A stretch of DNA of 64,000 nt. It comes from Lysinibacillus sp. 2017 (GTDB lineage Bacteria > Bacillota > Bacilli > Bacillales_A > Planococcaceae). The notes under the pieces are model-generated. The model worked only from the letters and a program-made list of their open reading frames with translations. It was not told the origin of the DNA and made no database searches. Where the stretch lies: assembly GCF_003073375.1 (NCBI RefSeq), contig NZ_CP029002.1, forward strand, positions 420,001 through 484,000, given 5' to 3'. Positions 1,435-55,983 of the stretch are shown one piece after another. The first letter of the stretch is position 1. Each line of letters begins with the position of its first letter. A program made the position numbers and the translations under genes.

Positions 1435-1505
1435 AGAAATAATGCGGAAAATTTCTGTCAATATGCTAAAATGGGGCTAACCTTGAAATCGAAAGGATGA
1501 ACAGC

Positions 1506-2696
1506 ATGTCAAACGTATTAACGACTTTTTTAGATGAAAATTTAGACGCGTTACGCTCGCAAGGTTTATACAATGAAATCGACCCTGTAGAAGGTGCAAA
1601 CGGTCCGATTATTCAAGTTGCAGGCAAAAAGTTAGTGAACTTATCATCAAACAACTATTTAGGCTTAGCAACTAATGATGAGTTAAAGAAAATTGCCCAA
1701 AAAACAATTGATACATACGGTGTGGGTGCAGGTGCCGTTCGTACAATTAACGGAACACTGGATTTACACGTAAAATTAGAAGAAACACTCGCAAAATTTA
1801 AAGGTACAGAAGCAGCGATTAGTTATCAATCAGGCTTCAACTGTAATATGGCGGCGATTTCAGCTGTTATGGATAAAAACGACGCGATTTTATCTGATGC
1901 ATTAAACCATGCGTCGATCATTGATGGCTGTCGTTTATCAAGAGCGAAAATTATACCGTTCGCCCACTCTGATATGAATGATTTACGCGAAAAAGCAAAA
2001 GCAGCCAAGGAATCAGGTCTTTACAATAAAGTAATGGTCATTACAGACGGCGTATTTTCGATGGACGGGGATATTGCAAAATTACCTGAAATCGTAGAAA
2101 TCGCAAAAGAATTCGATTTAATCACTTACGTAGATGACGCGCATGGTTCAGGCGTAACAGGTAAAGGTTCGGGCACAGTGAAGCATTTCGGCTTACAAAA
2201 TGAAATTGACTTCCAAATCGGTACATTATCAAAAGCAATCGGTGTTGTCGGTGGTTATGTAGCAGGAAAGAAAAACTTAATCGACTGGTTAAAAGTTCGT
2301 TCTCGACCATTCTTATTTTCAACAGCGTTACCACCAGGTGATGTAGCGGCAATTACACGCGCGGTTGAAATGATTATGGAATCAACAGAACTGCATGATT
2401 TACTTTGGGAAAATGGCCATTATTTAAAAGAAGGCTTAGCGAAATTAGGCTTTAATATTGGTGCATCAGAAACACCAATTACACCATGTATTATTGGTGA
2501 TGAGAAGCTAACGCAGAATTTCTCGAAACGTTTAATCGAAGAGGGCGTATACGCGAAAGCAATCGTCTTCCCAACAGTTCCTAAAGGGACAGGTCGCGTG
2601 CGCAATATGCCAACAGCAGCGCATACAAAGGAAATGTTAGATGACGCATTAGCAATTTACGAAAAAGTAGGTCGTGAATTAGGGGTAATTAAATAA
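1506..2696 (+). CDS. kbl: Glycine C-acetyltransferase (2-amino-3-ketobutyrate CoA ligase)
   Basis: A 396-residue PLP enzyme of the alpha-oxoamine synthase family. It cleaves 2-amino-3-oxobutyrate with CoA to give glycine and acetyl-CoA, the second step of threonine degradation. Visible features are [10 protein letters not shown] near the N-terminus, [10 protein letters not shown], the DDAHGSG motif and the PLP-lysine segment [15 protein letters not shown], with the usual length for Kbl. The relative BioF is the main alternative; the partner tdh gene at 8455 supports Kbl. Start ATG 1506 has AAAGG nine bases upstream; ATG 1497 overlaps that site. The gene stands alone and ends at a strong terminator. 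Confidence 0.88.
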
Positions 2697-2737
2697 TCGT
2701 GTTAGGGCTGTCCAATTAATTGGACAATTTAACATAC

Positions 2738-2785
2738 AAACAGGTGAAGCATACATTCGTGTAGCTTCACCTGTTTTATGTTTTT
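2738..2785 (+). terminator. Terminator after kbl
   Basis: AAACAGGTGAAGC (2738-2750) pairs with GCTTCACCTGTTT (2764-2776), followed by a T-rich tail. The 13-bp stem is perfect. Confidence 0.9.
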
Positions 2786-2867
2786 GTGGTCTTAAAACTG
2801 TAATAGCTCCTAAAGTTAGCCTGTGGTGGCAAAAGAGGGACTTGATAAGTGGGCGATGAAATTTGAA

Positions 2868-2911
2868 AAAAGGGCAAAAAAATACAGCATAGCGGATTCG
2901 CTATGCTGTAT
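2868..2911 (-). terminator. Terminator of the antiporter gene
   Basis: ATACAGCATAGCG and CGCTATGCTGTAT form a 13-bp perfect stem with loop GATT. Read on the minus strand it is followed by seven T residues, so it ends the transcript of the 2971-4122 gene. Confidence 0.88.
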
Positions 2912-9861: not shown

Positions 9862-10641
9862 TTAAAGTACGGCTGCTTTTTTCGATGCTTGTACGAGTGT
9901 TTCAATTGTTGTCCAGTCTTGCTGCTTGAGTGCTGTGACGATTTTACTGCCGACAATAACGCCGTCTGCAAGTTCACCAAAGTTTTTCACATGCGCAGGT
10001 GTTGAAATACCGAAGCCTGCTAAAACTGGGATGTCACTAAACGCTTTTAAATTAGCAAAGTGATTTTTTAAATCATCTGCAAAACTAGCACGTTCCCCAG
10101 TAATCCCGTTTACCGTTACCGCATAGATAAAGCCTTCACTTGCTTTAGCCAACTTTTTCATACGTTCAGCAGGGCTCGTTAACGAAACAAGCTGCACGAG
10201 TGCGATGTTTTGTGCTTGGAGCGCAGGATGAATAATCGCACGTTCTTCATAAGGCATATCCGGAACGATTAGACCTTGGATTTGAGCAGCCTTCGCGTCG
10301 CGTGCAAAGTGTTCCACACCATACGCTAAAATCGGATTTAAATACGTCATCGCAACGAGTGGAACCGTAATTTCATCCGCAAAACTTGTTAATTCCTTTA
10401 GCACCTTTCGTAAAGTGACACCATGTGCAAGGGCACGTTCACCAGCTTGTTCAATGACAGGACCGTCTGCAACGGGATCGGTAAATGGAATTCCAATTTC
10501 AATGGCCGTTACCCCGAGTTGTTGAAACTTCAGTATGGTTGGCTTTAGTGTTTCAAGTCCACCATCACCCGCCATTATATAAGGAACAAATGCTTTATCA
10601 CCTGCGACTAAAATTTGTTCGATTGCTTGCTGTAACGTCAT
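9862..10641 (-). CDS. trpA: Tryptophan synthase alpha subunit
   Basis: A 259-residue TIM-barrel protein. TrpA cleaves indole-3-glycerol phosphate to indole and glyceraldehyde 3-phosphate and passes indole to TrpB. Signature blocks are [12 protein letters not shown], the catalytic Glu in [19 protein letters not shown] and the phosphate-binding VLAGFGIS and [10 protein letters not shown] loops. Its start overlaps the trpB stop by 4 nt, consistent with translational coupling. It is the last gene of the trp operon. Confidence 0.95.
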
Positions 10642-11825
10642 ACTTTTGCACCTCCAAACTTATCCATTAACGTGTGAACATCTTTATCGCCACGACCAGA
10701 TAAACAAACGACGATAATTTCGTCAGCAGGGCGATTTTTTGCAAATTCCGCAGCAAAATAAACCGCATGCGCACTTTCTAACGCTGGTAGAATGCCTTCT
10801 GTTTCACATAATAATTTCACACCTTGCAATGCTTGTTCATCGGTTACAGAAGGGTAGGTAGCGCGGCCTGTTTCATGTAAATAACAATGCTCTGGACCAA
10901 CACCAGGATAATCGAGACCTGCTGAAATCGAGTGAGCCTCTTGTATAAAGCCGTTATCATCTTGAAGCAAATACATAAAGGCACCGTGTAAGACACCTGT
11001 TTTTCCAACATGAATGGCTGCTGCATGCTTATCGGTTTCCACACCATCACCCGCTGCTTCTACCCCGTAAAGTGTAACGTCAGAATCACCGATAAACGGA
11101 TAAAACATTCCAATCGCGTTACTGCCACCACCAATACATGCAATCACCGTGTTTGGTAGGCGACCTTCTTGCGCGAGAATTTGCTGTCTTGTTTCATCCC
11201 CAATAATACGCTGGAAGTCACGAACAATCGTCGGAAATGGATGTGGTCCAAGCGCTGAACCTAAAATATAGTGCGTATCTTCAATATGCGTGACCCAATG
11301 ACGCAATGCTTCATTGACAGCATCTTTCAAAGTGGCAGAGCCTTTTTCAACTGCAATGACTTTCGTTCCTAATAGTTCCATACGAAAGACGTTTAACTGT
11401 TGACGGCGTACATCTTCTGCCCCCATATAAACGATGCATTCCATATCGAGTAGTGCACAAGCTGTTGCCGTAGCAACCCCATGCTGACCTGCGCCCGTTT
11501 CAGCAACAATTTTTTTCTTTCCCATACGTTTTGCGAGTAATGCTTGCCCAAGCGCATTGTTAATTTTATGAGCACCCGTATGATTTAAATCTTCACGCTT
11601 TAAATAAATTTTCGCGCCCCCCATTTTTTCTGTCAGTCTCTCAGCAAAATAAAGGGGTGTTTCTCTACCAACATATTGCTTTAAATAATAGGCAAGTTCT
11701 TGTTGGAACTCTGGATCATTTTTTGCTTGTTCATACGCTTCTTCTAATTCATGTAGTGGCGTCATCAAGGTTTCGGGTACGAATTGTCCACCGAATTGCC
11801 CGAAACGTCCTTTTAAAGTCGTCAT
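10638..11825 (-). CDS. trpB: Tryptophan synthase beta subunit
   Basis: A 395-residue PLP enzyme that condenses indole with serine to tryptophan. The PLP lysine is K87 in [11 protein letters not shown], the phosphate cup is [10 protein letters not shown], and the catalytic acid block is [13 protein letters not shown]. Length is normal for TrpB1. It overlaps trpA by 4 nt and trpF by 4 nt, forming a tightly coupled operon. Nothing suggests decay. Confidence 0.96.
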
Positions 11826-12439
11826 AAAATCAGCTCTCCTTTTGCTTTTTCGATAAAGTTTGCGATAGCTGTCGAACTTTTTCGTCCGTCTATTTCGACA
11901 CCGCTCGAGACATCGACAGCAAATGGTTCGACAAGCATTATAGCAAGACCGACATTTTCATCATTTAAACCACCAGCTAAAATAATTTTTTCAGAAGGAA
12001 TCTTCATTTTATCGAGTAGTAGCCAATCAAATGATTTTCCGCTACCACCGCGGTAATCCGTTCCAAGTGCATCGAATAAATAGTAATCTACCTGATAACG
12101 AGCCGCACGCACGACATCTTCCTCCGTCTGAACGGAGAATGCTTTAATCGCTGGTAACCCAATCGCTTCAATCATATCCGGTGTTTCATCCCCGTGATAT
12201 TGAATGTAATGAAGTCCGACTTTTTGCGCAATTTCTTTTATCGTTTCAGGCTTTTCATTTACGAATACACCTACTTTTTTCACATTACTTGGAATCACCT
12301 TAGCTAGTTCAATTGCTTGTTCCATTGTAATTTGGCGTTTACTCGGGGCAAACATGAGTCCAATAAAATCTGCACCCGCTTTTACTGCTGCTTCTACATG
12401 TTCGATTTCTTTTAATCCGCAAATTTTTACTTTTGTCAT
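11822..12439 (-). CDS. trpF: Phosphoribosylanthranilate isomerase
   Basis: A 205-residue single-domain TIM barrel. It opens with [21 protein letters not shown], where Cys is the conserved general base, and contains [10 protein letters not shown] and the DVSSGVE phosphate-binding end. It isomerises N-(5-phosphoribosyl)anthranilate. ATG 12439 directly abuts the trpC stop (12440), and its own stop overlaps trpB, as expected inside a coupled operon. Confidence 0.94.
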
Positions 12440-13231
12440 CTATTTTTCGCCAGCTTTCGTCGTAATGTCGATTTGTAAGTTTTGAAGGGAAGTTTTGACG
12501 TCGCCACTGCGCATAAGCGATTCGCCAACCAACACAGCTTTTGCGCCAGCATTCGCCACAAACCTTGCATCTTCTGCGTTCCAAATGCCACTTTCGCTAA
12601 TAAAGGCAGTAGTAGAGGAAGGAAGATGTTGTGCAATTTCTGCCGTTTTTGAAAGCGTCACTTCAAATGTTTTTAAATTGCGGTTGTTGACTCCGATAAT
12701 TTTCGCGCCAATAGCTGTGGCGCACTGCAATTCATCGATGTCATGGACTTCAACAAGTACTTCTAGATTTTTTGCTGCCGCGTACGTATAGAGCGACTGC
12801 AGTTGTTCGTTTTTTAAGGCCGCTACAATAAGTAAAATGACAGAAGCTCCAGCAGCCTTTGCATAATCGATTTGCACCGAATCGATGATGAAGTCTTTAC
12901 ATAGAACAGGGATGGCGACTGCATTTGCCACTGCGTTTAGATCCTGAAATGATCCTTTGAAATAAGCGTGCTCTGTTAAAACAGAAATACAAGCTGCACC
13001 TGCTTGCTCGTATTGCAAAGCTTGGTCGATAGGGTCGATATGTGTGGCGATATCACCCTTTGAAGGGGAGGCACGCTTCATTTCAGCAATGACTTGTAAT
13101 GTGTCTGATTTTATTAAGTTTTCATAAAGAGACGGGCGTGTTTTCAAGACGGTTTGAAAATTGGGCTTTGCTGCTTGAAGTGCAGGTAATTCTAATCTTT
13201 TTTGCTCAAGTATTTTGTCTAAAATCGTCAT
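12440..13231 (-). CDS. trpC: Indole-3-glycerol phosphate synthase
   Basis: A 263-residue TIM barrel. Visible are VIAEMKRASPSKG with the catalytic Lys, VLTEHAYFKGS, VLCKDFIID with the second Lys, and the IGVNNRNLKTF and ISESGIW blocks. It closes carboxyphenylaminodeoxyribulose phosphate to indole-3-glycerol phosphate. It overlaps trpD by 4 nt. TrpC and TrpF are separate genes here, as in Bacillus. Confidence 0.95.
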   Translation of the reverse strand: MTILDKILEQKRLELPALQAAKPNFQTVLKTRPSLYENLIKSDTLQVIAEMKRASPSKGDIATHIDPIDQALQYEQAGAACISVLTEHAYFKGSFQDLNAVANAVAIPVLCKDFIIDSVQIDYAKAAGASVILLIVAALKNEQLQSLYTYAAAKNLEVLVEVHDIDELQCATAIGAKIIGVNNRNLKTFEVTLSKTAEIAQHLPSSTTAFISESGIWNAEDARFVANAGAKAVLVGESLMRSGDVKTSLQNLQIDITTKAGEK

Positions 13232-14265
13232 TTCATCGATTCCTCCTGTAGCGTCTTTTGACTGTATGCTGCGACGTGCTCCAGCTTTTCGTAGGCACGA
13301 CCAGAAATAATACTGTCTTTTGCCATTTCAATGCCTTCTTTCATCGTGTCGGCTAAGCCGTATGCGAAAAAGCCAATGCCTGCGTTTAACACGACGGTAT
13401 CGAAGTAGGCACTTTGTTTACCTTGTAATAGTTCGCGCATAATCTGAGCATTTTCAGTTGGATTTCCGCCGCGGATTGCAGAGAGAGGTTGAGCTTGTAA
13501 ACCAACATCTTCGGCGCGTAATTTAAACGGAATGATGTCGCCGTGATCGAGCAACACGAATGTATTCTCACCATCAAGTGACGCTTCATCCATACCCTTA
13601 GCACCCGAGACAACAATTGCACGCTCTCGTCCTAATAGATGAAGAACCTCTGCGTAATCGGTTGTGAAATTTGGCCGATTAATGCCGACGAACTGTGTTT
13701 TTAAAGGCACTGGATTTGTTAATGGACCAACTAAATTAAAAATGGTTGGCTTCCCGATTGTCTGGCGAACTTCTCCAATACGCTTCAGCTTCGGATGCAT
13801 ATTCGGTGCGTGTAAAAATGCAATACCTTGCTGTTTTAAAAGCTCGGTCGTTTGTGCTGTATTCGGTAGCAGGGCAATGCCGAGTGCTTCTAATACATCG
13901 GAACTACCCGATGCACTCGAAATTTTACGATTTCCATGCTTCGCAATTAAAATGCCACCGCCAGCTAACACGAAAGCGGCTGTCGTACTAATGTTAAAAC
14001 TTTGCAGGCCGTCACCACCGGTCCCACAATTGTCGATGTAAATGCCTTCAGGTGCATCGATTGTTACGGCATGGGATTTCATAACTGCCGCAAGACCCGC
14101 CACTTCATGAGCGGTTTCACCTTTTTTATTCATTGCGAGTAAGAAGGTAGCAATTTGTTCCTTTGGTGTTTGTTCATCAAATAGGAGCTGAGCCGCTTGC
14201 TGCATGTCATTGAAATCTAAATGCTTACCACGTTGTAATTGATGTATATAGGAAGTTAAAGACAT
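13228..14265 (-). CDS. trpD: Anthranilate phosphoribosyltransferase
   Basis: A 345-residue protein with the family motifs: DNCGTGGDG (pyrophosphate loop), NISTTAAFVLAGGG, KHGNRKISSASGSSDVLEALG and FNLVGPLTNP. It transfers the phosphoribosyl group of PRPP to anthranilate. Its start lies directly against the stop of the trpE-like frame. No trpG precedes it, so the glutamine amidotransferase subunit must come from elsewhere, for example pabA. Confidence 0.95.
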   Translation of the reverse strand: MSLTSYIHQLQRGKHLDFNDMQQAAQLLFDEQTPKEQIATFLLAMNKKGETAHEVAGLAAVMKSHAVTIDAPEGIYIDNCGTGGDGLQSFNISTTAAFVLAGGGILIAKHGNRKISSASGSSDVLEALGIALLPNTAQTTELLKQQGIAFLHAPNMHPKLKRIGEVRQTIGKPTIFNLVGPLTNPVPLKTQFVGINRPNFTTDYAEVLHLLGRERAIVVSGAKGMDEASLDGENTFVLLDHGDIIPFKLRAEDVGLQAQPLSAIRGGNPTENAQIMRELLQGKQSAYFDTVVLNAGIGFFAYGLADTMKEGIEMAKDSIISGRAYEKLEHVAAYSQKTLQEESMK

Positions 14266-15258
14266 TTAAAGTCCTCCTTTTATTAACGTATGAAAGGGTA
14301 CTTCACCATCATTAGTTGCTGTATAAAGCTGAGCAATATCCCCAGTAATTGTGATCATGCTATGGGGTGTCGCAAAATCAACCTGACCGTTAAAGCCGAT
14401 GTAACCGATTAAGCCTTCGTTTGGCTGTAACTCTTTTACGACATCCATTGCGTGAAAAGTAGATAGGAGCTTTCCATGCTGAATTTGCTCCGCTTGGTGA
14501 ATGGAATTTTCCTCACAAAAGCGCTCGATGGAAGCTTCGGTATTAGTTGTCGAAAGTTCACCATCTCGAATTTGAATTGAGCTTGTTGGAGACGTTCCAA
14601 TAACTGTGCATTCATCAAACTCGATGTAGTACATATAGGCTGCTGCATGCTGAATACGAAGCTTACGGTAAAGTGAAAAGGCATCCCCTGAAAATTTTGC
14701 ATCATAACGATTCGTGGCGCTTTTTTCCAAAGAGTGAAGCAGATAATCTGTTTCAATCGGTGTATGACCAGCAAATAATTGCTCGATTAACGCATCGATA
14801 TTCGGTTCAACTTGCTCCGCTTCAATATTTGTGTGAAACACAGCAATTTCATCCGTTAAATGATCGAAAATAAAAAGCGTATCGTACACATGAAATTGCA
14901 TGGCGGGAAGTGATTTTGGCAGGGCGTTTATATAACCAATACCACCACCTGTTAAAGGAAATTCTGTATGTGATGACACGCGCGGCATCACTTGCTTTAA
15001 TAAGGAAATTAATTCACCGTCATATTGGTACGATTTATTTGTTAAATGCGAGATATCTTGCAAATACTCGTCTTGCCCACGATAGGTTTTCCTTGGATTA
15101 ACGCCAATGAAGGAATAACGCCCGTTACCTTCATATTTCGTCGAGCTTTCTAATAAAAATTTATGACGCCCTTGCAATCGCTGGAAAATAGAAATCGGTG
15201 TTAATAAGTCACCATTTACTTTTTTCATTGACGTGCGAAATCGCTGTTTAATAGACAT
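14266..15258 (-). CDS. trpE: Degenerate TrpE-like protein, probably inactive anthranilate synthase component I
   Basis: A 330-residue open frame in the trpE position, against about 460-515 for normal TrpE. The N-terminal half still looks like TrpE: FLLESSTKYEGNGRYSFIGV matches the tryptophan-binding LLES region. Weaker matches follow: LYRKLRIQHAAAYMYYIEF with TVIGTSPTS, and near the end LIGYIGFNGQVD. The stretch between them is missing, so the PIAGTR-type motif, the DEKERAEH helix, the LxRND motif, the HVMH segment and the PAGTxSGAPK loop cannot be found. These build the chorismate and Mg2+ site, so activity is very unlikely. The frame has no internal stop. RBS AGAGG sets ATG 15258. It is first in the T-box-controlled operon. 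Confidence 0.75.
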   Translation of the reverse strand: MSIKQRFRTSMKKVNGDLLTPISIFQRLQGRHKFLLESSTKYEGNGRYSFIGVNPRKTYRGQDEYLQDISHLTNKSYQYDGELISLLKQVMPRVSSHTEFPLTGGGIGYINALPKSLPAMQFHVYDTLFIFDHLTDEIAVFHTNIEAEQVEPNIDALIEQLFAGHTPIETDYLLHSLEKSATNRYDAKFSGDAFSLYRKLRIQHAAAYMYYIEFDECTVIGTSPTSSIQIRDGELSTTNTEASIERFCEENSIHQAEQIQHGKLLSTFHAMDVVKELQPNEGLIGYIGFNGQVDFATPHSMITITGDIAQLYTATNDGEVPFHTLIKGGL

Positions 15259-15291: not shown

Positions 15292-15330
15292 AAAAAAGCC
15301 CTCAACAAAAGAATGATCTTTTGTTGAGGA
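15292..15330 (-). terminator. Attenuator terminator of the trp T-box leader
   Basis: On the minus strand CCTCAACAAAAGA pairs with TCTTTTGTTGAGG and is followed by GCTTTTTT. It lies between the T-box sequence and trpE and is the conditional terminator of the leader. Confidence 0.9.
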
Positions 15331-15600
15331 CGATAGAAACCGCGTTGCCACCTCGATTGAAGCTGTGTATGCTTCCGCTCTAAACCTGATAACGGCAGGG
15401 AACCGTCCACTAACTATGCGCTAGTAGCTTTCATAAGGCCCATTCACATTTCACCTTTGACGCATTTTCACCAACCATGCGCTCTCTAAACAAACGAAAA
15501 ATGCTACTCTTCTTAGTCATTAATTTTTCTCAGCTCAATCTCAGCTCCACTTTGCTACAACGGTGGTCACGCTCCCGCAACCTGCTACCGTATAACGAAC
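15292..15600 (-). promoter_or_regulatory. Tryptophan T-box leader RNA
   Basis: Read on the minus strand, the leader contains the T-box sequence GAGGTGGCAACGCGG (15340-15354) upstream of the attenuator. The Stem I specifier region GTGAATGGGCC contains UGG (15440-15442) in the expected GAA-codon context. Uncharged tRNA(Trp) should therefore favour read-through into the trp operon. The AGUAG-rich Stem I base and the GGUUGGUGAAAAUGCG arm are also present. Confidence 0.9.
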
Positions 15601-15713: not shown

Positions 15714-16199
15714 TTAGATTAATTTTTTGAAATGTAATCGTTTATTTAACGCATGCATTATTGGTGCACTAATAGCAAGTACAACAAATTCGCCGAATGC
15801 AACAAATGCCCATGTTTCCCAGAACGGGAACTCTAATACAATGTTGAGCTGTGCTGCGATGATGAACATCGTAAACGTAAATAACAATGTATTAATAATT
15901 AAGCGTGCCCAAATATTTTTTACAAATTTACAAATGAAAATTAAGATCCCCAATGTAATGATTGTATGTCCTACGCCAAAAATCAAATCGATTGGACCAA
16001 TTGAAGACAGTAGGAAATTCGAAATAAAAACACCAATCACAACACCTAGCATATAGCGTGGGTTAAAGACGATTAAATGGTTGAATAGCTCGGCAATACG
16101 GAATTGTACTTGACCAAAGCTAATCGGAGCAACAAGCATTGTTACAGCAATATATAATGCTGCAATAATGGCACTCGTTGCCATAAATTTTACTTTCAC
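15714..16199 (-). CDS. queT: QueT-family transporter (queuosine precursor uptake)
   Basis: A 161-residue protein with about five membrane segments, of the QueT S-component type used by ECF transporters. The block APISFGQVQFRIAELFNHLI near the N-terminus is characteristic. It should import preQ1 or a related queuosine precursor with a shared ECF module encoded elsewhere. The start is GTG 16199 behind AGGAGGA. A preQ1-I riboswitch lies directly upstream with its 3' end in the ribosome site, which strongly supports the substrate call. Confidence 0.88.
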   Translation of the reverse strand: MKVKFMATSAIIAALYIAVTMLVAPISFGQVQFRIAELFNHLIVFNPRYMLGVVIGVFISNFLLSSIGPIDLIFGVGHTIITLGILIFICKFVKNIWARLIINTLLFTFTMFIIAAQLNIVLEFPFWETWAFVAFGEFVVLAISAPIMHALNKRLHFKKLI

Positions 16200-16207
16200 A
16201 TTCAGTT

Positions 16208-16247
16208 CCTCCTAGTTTTTTTACGTGGGATGGTTACGAACCACGTG
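16208..16247 (-). promoter_or_regulatory. preQ1-I riboswitch controlling queT translation
   Basis: On the minus strand ACGTGG-TTCGTAACCATC-CCACGT forms stem P1, followed by the A-rich tail AAAAAAACTA that pairs back in the H-type pseudoknot. The tail runs into AGGAGG, so ligand binding should hide the Shine-Dalgarno sequence. This matches the compact class I preQ1 consensus. Confidence 0.88.
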
Positions 16248-16426
16248 AAGCAACTGCAATCATAGCAAGTTTGATCATTATTGTAAATAGTAACACGAAA
16301 AAATAAATCATTAATAAAAAAATAATTATGACGAAAATAATACTATTTATGACTAGATATTGTAAGTAATTGCTTTAAATATTGTCAATTTTTAATATAT
16401 ACAGAAAAGTATTTGGGGGAACTAAG

Positions 16427-20677: not shown

Positions 20678-23600
20678 ATGTCGTATTCGCTAGATCAGTT
20701 TTCAATAATCGAAAGCCATGATGACTGGCTCTTAGAACATAAAGTAAATGAGCATGGTAACCACGACATGTCGAAAGTTGTTAATCGGAAAAATAAAAAA
20801 AAAATCGCCCAGTTACACTATGAGCTAGAATTAGCCAATGAGTTGAATTTATCAACGATGCTACAACCGATTGCAATCGAACAAAACGATCAATACATAA
20901 AGTTAACCTATCAAAGCACGCAACAAAAATACATATCGTTAGCAGAATACATTTCTGCGTCTTTAACTACATATGACTTCTTAAAAATCGCCATCAATAT
21001 TACGAACTGCTTTATTGATTTACATCAAGCTTCTTATATTTATCGAAACGTCCATCCGAAACATTTTTTAATCGATCCACAGACATATGATATAAAACTA
21101 TACAATACCGAACATGTTTTCAAGTATTCCAATTATGCGCACTCCTTAGGAATCGAAAAAGAGCTTCCTAACCATCGACTAGATTATGTAGCACCCGAAG
21201 AAACAGGAAGAGTAACGAGCGAAATTGATTTTCAAACGGATTTATATAGTTTAGGTGTCTTATTTTTTAAAATGATTTCAAGAAGAACGCCCTATATAGG
21301 GGACTCAACCACATTATTAAATAAGATGCTAACAACGTCCCCACCAACATTTACGGAGTTAGGTATAAAAGTACCTGCGATTATTGAAAAAATTATTCAG
21401 AAGCTCTTAAGTAAAAATAAGGAAAATCGTTATCAAAGTGCAATCGGTGTGAAAGAGGATTTGGCCCTTTGTTGGTACCGTTTCACCAATAAACTTCCAC
21501 TAAGTGATTTTGAATTAGCCATGCAAGATAATATCAACCAACGAAATTTAAATGTCATTATCCCAACAAGACAGCGAATGATAAATGAATTATCCAAGCA
21601 AATCGAACAGTACCAAGAACAGCAACAAATTCATCTACTTAAAGGAAAAGACGGAGCAGGAAAAAGTTATGCGCTGTTAACGATGTATAAATCCTGTTTA
21701 GCTGAGTCAAGATTTGTACTGCAATTTGCAAAAGATACGAAGCATGCAAAAACGAAAATTCCTGTATTTTTATTAGCCTACCGTCAACAATTTATGCGTT
21801 TCATAGAGGTAAATGAACAAACAAGGCATAATTGGAAGCAAAGGCTTTTGTCGCTCAACTTAACGTTTCCAAAATTAGTGCTCACATATTTTCCTGAATT
21901 AGAACCTTATAAAGATGAGTTGAATATAACAGAGCAGCAAGAGGTCATTGAACAAGATCAATTATTTATGATATTTTCTCAGATCATCGAAGTATTTCAT
22001 ACACAAGCCTTGCCAGCAGTCATTATTGTAGATGATTGGCTGAAATTAGATTTAGACTCTCAAAAGTTTATTGAATTTTTAATAAAAAAACAACGACCGT
22101 ATATTTTCCTGTTTGCCGAGCAACAAACGAATGATATTACGCACTGGCTACAACAAAATAATCGACCGTTTATTGAACATCAAATTTTATTTATTTCAAA
22201 AGAAGAAGTAATGGAATGGATAGCGTATTCTTTTAAAAGTAATGAAGAGGCACTTCGCCAATTAGCAGAATTTTTATTTGATATTACACAAGGGAATCCA
22301 TTATTTATTCAAGAATTATTTTTAGTAGTTTGTGAGCAGCAAGTGCTGAAATACGATCATCACAGCCATGAATGGCAATTTGATATACACGCAAGTCAAC
22401 TGAAGGGAAATATCGCAACTTTCCATGAATTTATCGCGCGCGGTATCGAAAAGTTATCACAGCAAGAAGTGATTGTGTTGAAGTATGCAGCGTGCATCGG
22501 AATGCAATTCGATCTCGAAACGTTATTAAACATTGTTCCATTTCATAAGGAAAAGACTTTACAGATTTTCACTGAATTATTAAGAAATCGATTTTTTATA
22601 GCGAGACATGAACAAGTAGCATTATTTCGAACGTATATGGATTTTAATATGCTTGGAGAGATCAAAATTCCAGTGGTCTTCTTATGTGAAGATTTACTTG
22701 AAACAACATTAAAATTAGTGACAGCAGAAGAACTAGGTACAATACATTATGCGATTTCTTCCTATTTTTTTAGTGAAAAAGAGCAAATCGATGTTGAAAA
22801 ACGCTTACTTGTTCACCATTTGCGTTTTTGTCAGGAGTTATTAACAAAACAAGAGCTTGATAATTTTCTGAGATTGAACTTCGAATTGGGCAATAAAGCG
22901 TTGAAAAGTGGCATGTTCCGTGAAAGTTTGAGTTTTTCACAAGTGGCATACGATGTATTAACACCAGCGCACTGGAAAAATGACTATCAGTTAACATTAG
23001 AAGTTTATGTGATGCATGCCAATGCCCTGTACTTAAATGGTCATAAACAGGCGAATGAAATATTTGAAGCCGCATTAAAGCATTGTGAAAAAACATATGA
23101 TCGCCTATTTGTTTACAATGAAAAAAGCCTATTTTATATGATGGGACAAGCCGACGATAGCTTCCAGATGAATTTAATAGAAATTTTACAAATGGCTGAT
23201 GAGGCGTTAAAGCCGATGAACATCTCGATACGAACAAATATGTCTACGATTCAGGTCGCTAAAGAATACCTGTTATTAAAAAGCATGCTAAATAAATATC
23301 CAGCTTATCAACTGCTGAATTTGCCGAAAACAAAAAATAAGACGATGAAATTAGTATTAAGCTTATTAATGAATATTTCAGGTGCAGCATTGATCGTAGA
23401 TGAGAAACTATATGCGTGGATTAATATGAAGGCGATTCGTTTAATTATTAAATACGGAGAGGTCGAATTTGCCTCGGTGTTTTACGGAAACTTTGCGAAT
23501 ATTTTAGTGACAGGATTCAAAGATTTAAAGCAAGCGCACCGTTTTGGATTGCTCTCTGTAAAACATGTAGATAAATACGATAATCCCTTTTATAAAAGTA

Positions 23601-25798
23601 ATGTGTATATGAATTACGGAATTACGATTAGCTATTTAAAAAAATCGTATGATACGTCTATTTATTATTTAGCACAAACCCAAAAATACCATTTAAATAA
23701 TTCCTTACATCATTTATTTAATGCGATGGCCAGTGCTTATACACTTAACTTCATGCTTGTTCAAGGCGCGAAGTTAACGATGATTAAGGAAGAATATAAC
23801 GACCAAAAAATTTACTTAGAAGCAACGAATAATCGATTGTCTCAAGTATATGCAAATGAAATCGTCCATTGGATACACATACTACAAGATCCAAATGTGA
23901 AAATTGATTGGGAATTTCCAGTAGAGACGAAAATACGAGCTTCCTTTTGGGAAAGTCATTTAGTTTTACGCTTGCAAATGAGTTATTTATTACATGATAA
24001 ACAGCAGGCGGAAGCCCTATTACAAGAAATTCAGGCTATTTTAAATGACTCCATTTTAACGGCAAATCGACCACAATATTACTATTACCGAGCGTTGTGG
24101 AATTTTAGACAGTTAGAAGAAGACTTACCAAAGAAAATGGTAGTAAGTTTGATGAAGGATATTAAAAATTGTATGAAGGAAGTAAAAAAGTATGTTCAGC
24201 ACAATCCGCAAAATTTCGAACATATGTTGATGCTACTAAAGGCACAATACTACCGATTTACAAATCAAATTACGAAAGCCGTACTTCATTTTGATCGTGC
24301 CGTTCAGTTGGCCAAATTAGCTAATAATAATTGTGATAAAGCAATTGCCCTATTAAGCGCAGCGCTGTTTTATGAATCTCAACATGAATCCCAAAAAGCG
24401 AAAGACTATATGCAACGAGCGATTCAAACGTTGTATGCTTGGCAAGCACCCCGAGTCGTCCAAGTATGGGATGAGCATTATTATTATTTAAGAAAAAGAG
24501 TATTAGTCTTTGATCAACCTTCCGAAAATCAAGGGTTTGATATTCAACCGATTGTTAATATGTATCAAACGATCGCAAGTGAGAGCGAAGTAAAGGAATT
24601 ATTAAAAAACAGTTTGTTAGAAATCATGAAGCATTTAGATGCGGAGTCCATTTATTTATTTACCGTAAAGATGGATACGCCTAAGGTAGTAGCCTACGCA
24701 AATAGCGTGAAAGAGGAGTATATCTATTACGAAAATGCACAGGATGATATCGTTCCTTCTTTTATGTCAGAAATTTTGCAGGAAGTCATTACATCAAAGA
24801 AAATGGCTTTTAATAATGAGGTAATGGCAAAAGGAAAGTCAGTCATTTGTTTACCAATATTTATGAATGGCCATTTAAAGGCATTAATCTACTGCTCAAA
24901 TGATACGATTGCATCGATATTTACAAAAACAAAAATTGATTTAGTAACGATTTTGGCTACACAAATGTTGATGGCTAAAGAGAATATTGAAAGCAAAAAT
25001 ATTTTAGAACAAGAGGTAAAGGAAAGAACACTTGAACTGGTACAAGTTAATAATCAGTTGCAACAAATGAATGATCGCTTAAAGCAAAATGAAGAAGAAC
25101 GAAAATATTTCATTCAGCATATCTCGCATGATTTACGTTCGCCGCTTACATCTGTATTAGGTTATGTTGAGGCGCTTTCAGATGGTTTAGTTAAGACGGA
25201 AGAGCAACAAAAGCAATATTTAGCTCGAAGTAAAAGTCGATTACTCTCTTTAAATCATTTGATTCAAGACTTATTTGATATTGCTTTGTTAGAAGGCGGA
25301 CGTATCGAATATAAAAAAGAAGAATTATCGGCTAAACAATTATTTGCATTACTTGATGATTCCATCCAAAATGGACTTGAAGAAAAATCCGTTCACTATG
25401 TCAGAAGCTTTAGAGGGGAAAATGGAAGGCTTGTTGTTGATATAGAAAGAATTACGCAAGTCATCGATAATTTAACGAGTAATATTCGAAAATATGCAAA
25501 TGAAGGAACGGTTCACTTTTCGATTAATAGTACAGATCAATTCATCGAAATTTCGTTAAGTGATGAAGGGCAAGGAATACCAGAAAAGGACCTTCCATTT
25601 ATATTTGATATGCATTTCTCTGCTTCCAATAATCATCGTAAAGAATCTCATGGAATAGGGCTCGCAATTTGCAAACAAATTATTGAACATCACGGGGGTA
25701 GCCTTCGTGTGAGCAGTGATGGACAAAAAGGAACAACGATGACCATTAGACTGCCTGTTTTAAAAGAAAGTCCATCTGCTATTCTAAATATGGAATGA
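20678..25798 (+). CDS. Giant signalling protein: pseudokinase, STAND/AAA ATPase, helical repeats, GAF, histidine kinase
   Basis: A 1706-residue cytosolic protein. Residues 1-275 have a Ser/Thr kinase fold whose catalytic residues are lost: the HRD position reads Y122-R-N124 and the DFG position N143-T-E, with no glycine loop. Residues about 290-600 form an ATPase with Walker A GKDGAGKS (K329) and Walker B AVIIVDD. Residues about 620-1230 are helical, TPR-like. Residues about 1240-1410 resemble a GAF domain, followed by a coiled coil. The histidine kinase has H1484 in ISHDLRSPLTS, an N box NLTSNIRKYA, G1 DEGQGIP and G2 SHGIGLAI. The protein-kinase/ATPase/histidine-kinase architecture is known in bacteria. 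No response regulator is adjacent. RBS AAAAAAGGTGG precedes ATG 20678. Input and output are unknown. Confidence 0.85.
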   Translation: MSYSLDQFSIIESHDDWLLEHKVNEHGNHDMSKVVNRKNKKKIAQLHYELELANELNLSTMLQPIAIEQNDQYIKLTYQSTQQKYISLAEYISASLTTYDFLKIAINITNCFIDLHQASYIYRNVHPKHFLIDPQTYDIKLYNTEHVFKYSNYAHSLGIEKELPNHRLDYVAPEETGRVTSEIDFQTDLYSLGVLFFKMISRRTPYIGDSTTLLNKMLTTSPPTFTELGIKVPAIIEKIIQKLLSKNKENRYQSAIGVKEDLALCWYRFTNKLPLSDFELAMQDNINQRNLNVIIPTRQRMINELSKQIEQYQEQQQIHLLKGKDGAGKSYALLTMYKSCLAESRFVLQFAKDTKHAKTKIPVFLLAYRQQFMRFIEVNEQTRHNWKQRLLSLNLTFPKLVLTYFPELEPYKDELNITEQQEVIEQDQLFMIFSQIIEVFHTQALPAVIIVDDWLKLDLDSQKFIEFLIKKQRPYIFLFAEQQTNDITHWLQQNNRPFIEHQILFISKEEVMEWIAYSFKSNEEALRQLAEFLFDITQGNPLFIQELFLVVCEQQVLKYDHHSHEWQFDIHASQLKGNIATFHEFIARGIEKLSQQEVIVLKYAACIGMQFDLETLLNIVPFHKEKTLQIFTELLRNRFFIARHEQVALFRTYMDFNMLGEIKIPVVFLCEDLLETTLKLVTAEELGTIHYAISSYFFSEKEQIDVEKRLLVHHLRFCQELLTKQELDNFLRLNFELGNKALKSGMFRESLSFSQVAYDVLTPAHWKNDYQLTLEVYVMHANALYLNGHKQANEIFEAALKHCEKTYDRLFVYNEKSLFYMMGQADDSFQMNLIEILQMADEALKPMNISIRTNMSTIQVAKEYLLLKSMLNKYPAYQLLNLPKTKNKTMKLVLSLLMNISGAALIVDEKLYAWINMKAIRLIIKYGEVEFASVFYGNFANILVTGFKDLKQAHRFGLLSVKHVDKYDNPFYKSNVYMNYGITISYLKKSYDTSIYYLAQTQKYHLNNSLHHLFNAMASAYTLNFMLVQGAKLTMIKEEYNDQKIYLEATNNRLSQVYANEIVHWIHILQDPNVKIDWEFPVETKIRASFWESHLVLRLQMSYLLHDKQQAEALLQEIQAILNDSILTANRPQYYYYRALWNFRQLEEDLPKKMVVSLMKDIKNCMKEVKKYVQHNPQNFEHMLMLLKAQYYRFTNQITKAVLHFDRAVQLAKLANNNCDKAIALLSAALFYESQHESQKAKDYMQRAIQTLYAWQAPRVVQVWDEHYYYLRKRVLVFDQPSENQGFDIQPIVNMYQTIASESEVKELLKNSLLEIMKHLDAESIYLFTVKMDTPKVVAYANSVKEEYIYYENAQDDIVPSFMSEILQEVITSKKMAFNNEVMAKGKSVICLPIFMNGHLKALIYCSNDTIASIFTKTKIDLVTILATQMLMAKENIESKNILEQEVKERTLELVQVNNQLQQMNDRLKQNEEERKYFIQHISHDLRSPLTSVLGYVEALSDGLVKTEEQQKQYLARSKSRLLSLNHLIQDLFDIALLEGGRIEYKKEELSAKQLFALLDDSIQNGLEEKSVHYVRSFRGENGRLVVDIERITQVIDNLTSNIRKYANEGTVHFSINSTDQFIEISLSDEGQGIPEKDLPFIFDMHFSASNNHRKESHGIGLAICKQIIEHHGGSLRVSSDGQKGTTMTIRLPVLKESPSAILNME

Positions 25799-55725: not shown

Positions 55726-55754
55726 AGGTGTATTAACAAGTTAATAATGTAGTG

Positions 55755-55925
55755 TAAAGGTTCTTATTTTAGGAAATAAGAAGTAAAAGGGAAATCGGTT
55801 CAAATCCGATGCGGTCCCGCCACTGTAAATGCGAGCATATCTTTTTAGACCACTGATGCACATCGGGAAGGTAAAGATATGTGTTACTTGCATAAGCCAG
55901 GAGACCTGCCTTTACAATGCCCAAG
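55755..55925 (+). promoter_or_regulatory. Cobalamin (AdoCbl) riboswitch
   Basis: The core is unmistakable: AAAGGGAAATCGGTTCAAATCCGATGCGGTCCCGCCACTGTAA, read in pieces at 55794-55827, and the B12 box AGCCAGGAGACCTGCC at 55895-55910. It precedes cobalamin uptake and remodelling genes. AACCTA (55931-55936) can pair with TAGGTT inside the downstream terminator as an antiterminator, so bound cobalamin should stop transcription. Confidence 0.95.
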
Positions 55926-55983
55926 TAAAAACCTACGAGGATAGGATGGGGTGAATAATTTTTAATCGAATTATTTACTGTTC

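Follow-up and report, generated by a model that had tools for sequence, protein, structure and literature searches.

A catalytically dead TrpE paralogue at the head of the trp operon is maintained by selection in Solibacillus and may serve as a tryptophan-binding regulatory subunit

Anthranilate synthase serves in textbooks as an example of end-product inhibition, and the locus described here raises the question of what a trpE gene may still be doing at the head of a trp operon once its catalytic centre is gone. The window, by which we mean the whole stretch of 64,000 nucleotides that was analysed, carries what an earlier note had described as a T-box-controlled operon with trpDCFBA intact and trpG absent; the match to RF00230, the five open frames and the lack of any trpG within this operon agree with that description. 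The operon is composed as follows.

15323-15529, minus strand: T-box leader with a UGG (Trp) specifier, RF00230 126.8 bits, E 9e-28; UGG follows GAA in the specifier loop
15265-15272, minus strand: ribosome-binding site of trpE1, GAGAGGTG, with the ATG 7 nt downstream
14266-15258, minus strand: trpE1, opening gene of the trp operon, which encodes a catalytically dead TrpE paralogue; open frame of 330 codons plus stop
13228-14265, minus strand: trpD, anthranilate phosphoribosyltransferase, TIGR01245 349.9 bits (cut-off 199); ATG directly after the trpE1 stop
12440-13231, minus strand: trpC, intact frame, syntenic in the trp operons read
11822-12439, minus strand: trpF, intact frame, syntenic
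10638-11825, minus strand: trpB, intact frame, syntenic
9862-10641, minus strand: trpA, intact frame, syntenic

Beside the trp operon lies a genus-conserved PreQ1 riboswitch (16206-16250, minus strand), just upstream of a small membrane-protein gene (15714-16199, minus strand) whose product is probably a queuosine-precursor transporter. The window also contains a cobalamin riboswitch (55741-55927, plus strand, 117.5 bits) and a gene for a 1706-residue protein (20678-25798, plus strand), whose single chain looks, by eye, like a Ser/Thr-kinase-like domain, an ATPase/TPR part, a GAF domain and a histidine kinase.

The trpE1 frame starts at the ATG at 15258, and the corresponding genes of the relatives have AGGAG-type sites in the same position as in the window. 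The product retains LLES and GYIGFNG, in keeping with the open 330-codon frame with LLES and YIGFNG that had been noticed at 14266-15258 on the minus strand. Against the intact 464-aa TrpE encoded elsewhere in this genome it proves to be about 134 residues shorter, where the earlier note had spoken of about 120, and none of the motifs PIAGT, DEKExAEH, GRND, HVMH, PAGTxSGAPK, IRT and GAGIV is found in it; the catalytic-centre motifs are indeed missing. The Pfam profile of the N-terminal domain (PF04715, Anth_synt_I_N) matches residues 17-139 over profile positions 1-139 of 140 with an E-value of 2e-25. The chorismate-binding profile PF00425 aligns over positions 27-93 of 257 only and scores 26.6 bits against a cut-off of 27, and the TrpE equivalog TIGR00564 gives 112.2 bits, below its cut-off of 517.7. 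The AlphaFold2 single-chain model, built from a 4-sequence alignment, has a pLDDT of 37, too low to be of use. Three parts of the protein can be recognised as kept.

14746-15258, minus strand: residues 1-171 of TrpE1, the N-terminal domain; contains LLES, GRYSFIG and NPRKTY, a motif of the dead clade; omega 0.083
14539-14688, minus strand: core strands of TrpE1 (residues 191-240), AYMYYIEF with the Trp-site residues Y292 and M293 (from the alignment and residue table)
14371-14460, minus strand: scrap of the TrpE1 catalytic domain (residues 267-296), HAMDVVKELQPNEGLIGYIGFNGQVDF, which holds the Trp-site residues Y455 and D472; omega 0.039

That TrpE1 might keep, or have gained, a catalytic activity of its own has nothing in its favour beyond the ancestry of the fold; against it stand the PF00425 score below the cut-off and the loss of all chorismate- and Mg-site residues in the Solibacillus proteins, and we regard it as highly improbable.

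The anthranilate can come from elsewhere, as the earlier note had allowed. The host genome (3.74 Mb in one contig, 99.99% complete) encodes three intact chorismate enzymes besides trpE1. A trpE2-trpG operon at 2.416 Mb, 2 Mb from the window, has its own T-box with a UGG specifier; TrpE2 carries all the catalytic motifs and scores 566.9 bits with TIGR00564, above the 517.7 cut-off. The second, pabB, lies in a pabB-pabA-pabC group at 98 kb, and the third enzyme (2.851 Mb) may be MenF-like, judging by its length and place. The search for a second trpE or pabB/pabA that had been proposed thus found both, and since the pathway is complete on paper, the tryptophan auxotrophy once suggested for this strain is not to be expected. 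Nor is a sequencing error the cause of the missing motifs, because a trpE1 of about 325-332 codons recurs in 15 further species. A Trp-auxotrophic strain or an assembly error at this locus, ideas that have for them the missing motifs in the window and nothing further, are therefore rejected on the sequence as exceedingly improbable, given the intact TrpE2-TrpG with its Trp T-box, pabBAC and the same gene in 16 species.

The comparison with relatives shows that this gene is not peculiar to one strain. It is present in 16/16 Solibacillus genomes, where the 15 other proteins are 67-73% identical to that of the window over the whole length and all stand behind a T-box, with lengths of 325-332 residues. 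None of these 15 genomes has a full-length trpE at this locus, the finding that would have spoken against a dead gene. The dead lineage, carried by soil bacteria, extends to five sister genera (g14, g15, g16, g18 and g19), with proteins of 257-465 residues: 457 aa in g15, about 435-465 in g14, 383-402 in g19, 341-379 in g16 and 257-272 in g18. All the 55 dead-lineage genes sampled are open, with no stops or frameshifts, and the catalytic centre is missing in every one. In every dead-lineage operon read trpE1 is the first gene of the trp operon, and along the family the size of this first gene falls from 459 through 457, 435, 383 and 330 to 257 aa. In the tree the dead genes group together as a single clade (100/98), with TrpE1 and TrpE2 as separate clades, and a search at the level of the order found the dead lineage in no other family.

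The loss of catalysis tracks the presence of TrpE2: without TrpE2 the operon copy keeps its catalytic residues, and with it they are mostly lost. The TrpE2-lacking set that was aligned comprises 10 g3 genomes and one g5 genome, and there the operon TrpE is full-length, with all chorismate residues and an altered GRND motif. In the g3 loci (L072, L073, L137-L144), where it is the sole TrpE, the N of GRND is replaced by K, R or E and the D mostly by E, with all chorismate residues kept. In g6 and g17 the operon gene is full-length with light alterations and occurs together with TrpE2, apart from two g17 genomes, of which G031 has neither and G087 has TrpE2 only. Elsewhere in the family, beyond Solibacillus, the full-length operon TrpE proteins are of two sorts, dead or apparently still active. 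In the dead genera TrpE2 was present in the genomes examined, with the exception of G086 (fragmented, 90% complete), and TrpG adjoins TrpE2 at every locus read. The arrangement trpEGDCFBA, which still occurs in G026, is the ancestral one. In G031 the only chorismate enzymes are PabB-like and MenF-like and there is no real trpD match, so that its tryptophan pathway seems to be lost. Two further genomes have a second trpB-like gene, 57.9% identical to the trpB of the window, right after trpA (L066:7359-8495, plus strand, in G033; L069:3536-4672, minus strand, in G029).

Persistence of an open frame could in principle reflect no more than slow decay. TrpE1 would then be a relic, kept only as an open upstream frame for the translation of trpD, and both the shrinkage from 459 to 257 aa and the very short distance between the two genes (-4 to +7 nt from stop to start, with an overlap in about half of the 16 Solibacillus genomes) fit such a reading. 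The substitution pattern does not. Six close pairs pooled give a dN/dS of 0.107 for TrpE1, near the 0.070 of TrpE2, with 0.049 for trpD. Within TrpE1 it amounts to 0.083 in the N-terminal domain, 0.098 in the core strands, 0.215 in the linker, 0.161 in the variable part, 0.039 in the last conserved segment (HAID..GYIGFNGQVDF) and 0.240 in the tail; in g14 the same scrap has 0.059, and linker and tail 0.36-0.37. The most constrained part of TrpE1 is therefore the surviving piece of the lost catalytic domain. These pooled and segment values demonstrate that trpE1 is a selected protein-coding gene, and catalytic residues lost while purifying selection is kept (dN/dS 0.107, 55/55 open frames) are what defines a pseudoenzyme under selection. 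A translational coupler, moreover, is not essential, because in G087 (locus L151) the T-box (2696-2908, minus strand) is followed directly by trpD (1492-2532, minus strand) with no trpE1 detected between them. With the 55 genes free of stops and frameshifts, the dN/dS values and G087, we judged the relic reading very unlikely. Since G087 has trpDCF behind the T-box and TrpE2 elsewhere in the genome, TrpE1 is also dispensable in at least one lineage.

What is selected may be sought in the residues that survive. In Serratia TrpE the Trp site is formed by Ser40, Pro291, Met293, Val453 and Tyr455 (PMC10464499), and docking in M. tuberculosis TrpE names Leu54, Glu55, Ser56, Tyr284, Met285, Tyr445 and Asp453 (PMC6437058). 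Both domains contribute to this published set, whose members lie dispersed over the chain, and TrpE1 retains each of the segments that supply them. The window protein has the L, E39, S40, S67, Y292, M293, Y455 and D472, with V453 replaced by Ile and P291 by Ala. Among the 55 dead proteins, with genus weighting, L, E39, S40, S67 and D472 are conserved at 100%, Y292 at 94%, Y48 (the Tyr of GRYSF) at 88%, Y455 at 83% (otherwise Phe), M293 at 60% (otherwise Leu) and P291 at 39%; E39, S40, S67 and D472 are unchanged in all 55, and the equivalent of D472 contacts the amino group of Trp in docked M. tuberculosis TrpE (PMC6437058). The chorismate residues G328, T329, H398 and G485, on the other hand, are lost or scrambled as a set across the dead genes, including 16/16 Solibacillus.

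The statistics of single columns call for caution. Compared with all TrpE-invariant columns the Trp-site columns are preferentially retained (P 0.012), but when the lost columns are excluded the pocket residues are kept in 6/9 cases and the other invariant residues in 29/53 (P 0.72), so that general retention of the fold fits as well. Our argument for the Trp site consequently rests on which segments survived and on their dN/dS, not on the column test. TrpE1 might instead stabilise TrpD or TrpE2 as a scaffold or chaperone, with no part in Trp sensing and with the Trp-site residues persisting only for the fold. This would account for pocket residues being kept no better than other invariant residues of the retained segments, for the drift of P291 and M293 and for the position of trpD directly downstream at a spacing of -4 to +7 nt; a precedent is the TrpB of Chlamydia trachomatis, which needs full-length inactive TrpA (PMC3937554). 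It explains less readily why the segments that outlived the loss of about 134 residues are those giving the Trp-site residues, from both domains, and why D472, S40, E39 and S67 are invariant in 55/55. We consider a pure scaffold rather unlikely.

Some residues are fixed in the dead clade and absent from active TrpEs, namely R56 and T58 (within NPRKTY), T98, T135-D136 and N144 (HTNI); they suggest that a new surface has come under constraint. In M. tuberculosis TrpE the HHEGT segment, with which T135-D136 align, passes the inhibition by Trp across the dimer (PMC6437058); this alignment points to a dimer surface that may be retained or altered in TrpE1. The newly fixed residues would also suit a Trp sensor that works on its own, away from the pathway enzymes, with transport, RNA or a transcription factor as examples of its target, as would the g18 proteins of just 257-272 residues that still keep the Trp-site core. 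Such a sensor is distinctly unlikely, given that Pfam finds no DNA- or RNA-binding domain in TrpE1 and that trpE1 has kept its place as first gene of the trp operon throughout the dead-lineage operons read.

The reading that we favour is that TrpE1 is a selected pseudoenzyme which acts as a Trp-binding regulatory subunit and works like HisZ. We hold it at even odds with its opposite; that Trp is bound, what the partner is and which way the effect runs are what we infer. A remnant with a new role, for instance as a Trp-binding regulator, had been one of the possibilities raised by the earlier note, and it is the one that genus-wide retention, a dN/dS of 0.11 and the kept Trp-site core argue for. 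Early in the family trpE would have been duplicated. One copy, trpE2, travelling with trpG under its own Trp T-box, would make the anthranilate; the other, trpE1, left at the head of trpDCFBA, is without a chorismate site and in Solibacillus has also shed about 134 residues of its catalytic portion. The ribosome-binding site and the codon constraint argue that TrpE1 is still translated; it would be produced as the level of uncharged tRNA-Trp goes up. The parts that survive, an N-terminal domain and several separate strands, are those that jointly line the allosteric Trp site of TrpE. In a dimer or by docking, TrpE1 would join TrpE2-TrpG, or else TrpD, which is encoded directly downstream; these two are the most likely candidates for its putative partner. 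There it would tune the activity of the partner or its feedback inhibition in response to free Trp, as HisZ does for HisG. In enterics TrpD has to be in complex with anthranilate synthase for Trp to inhibit it (PMC10464499).

A more specific version is that duplication has split the Trp-sensing subunit from anthranilate synthase, and that Trp bound to TrpE1 controls TrpE2-TrpG or TrpD in trans. In 21/22 TrpE2 sequences LLES, whose second Leu contacts Trp, has Phe at this position, which possibly makes TrpE2 a weaker Trp sensor; this is a lead only, and it fits the split in that the sensor of the catalytic copy would be weakened. At the same time TrpE2 itself retains a near-complete Trp site and may therefore not need a separate sensor. 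Sensing by TrpE1 is also put in question by two positions: P291, with Ala in the window, drifts in the clade at large, and M293 is Leu in several genera. We offer the split as a tentative suggestion, on the doubtful side. If it is true, catalysis and feedback, which reside in one chain in other TrpE enzymes, are divided between two chains here. The clade offers a natural series, from a full enzyme to a 257-residue remnant, for the study of how allosteric sites become independent sensors, with stepwise loss of the catalytic half while the half with the Trp site stays selected. For these genera the annotation 'trpE' at the head of a trp operon may not mean an enzyme, which affects metabolic models and predictions of auxotrophy.

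A dead paralogue kept by selection is a known kind of protein; in the literature searched we found no dead TrpE, no earlier description of one that keeps its end-product site, and no duplicated trpE of which one copy is dead across a clade. TrpE proper (TIGR00564, PF04715 plus PF00425) is the direct paralogue and shares with TrpE1 the operon position, the N-terminal domain and the Trp-site core (L, E39, S40, S67, Y292, Y455, D472), whereas TrpE1 is without the chorismate site, scores 112 bits against 517.7, has about 134 residues fewer and no adjacent trpG. The AdoMetDC prozyme of trypanosomatids (PMC5201418), which regulates its active counterpart, and the eudicot pseudoenzyme for indole biosynthesis (PMC12727527) are likewise catalytically dead proteins with a biosynthetic role, but they belong to other enzymes and organisms, and neither is described in the text consulted as built around a retained end-product site. 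The closest analogy in the way of working is HisZ, the regulatory subunit of short-form ATP phosphoribosyltransferase, a catalytically inactive paralogue through which the first committed enzyme of an amino-acid pathway senses the end product (PMC10795190). HisZ, however, is a descendant of HisRS rather than of the enzyme it partners, and both its partner and its binding of histidine are known from experiment, while those of TrpE1 are putative. Genomes with a duplicated trpE resemble the present case in having two trpE copies under separate Trp control; the difference is that here one of the copies has lost catalysis throughout a clade.
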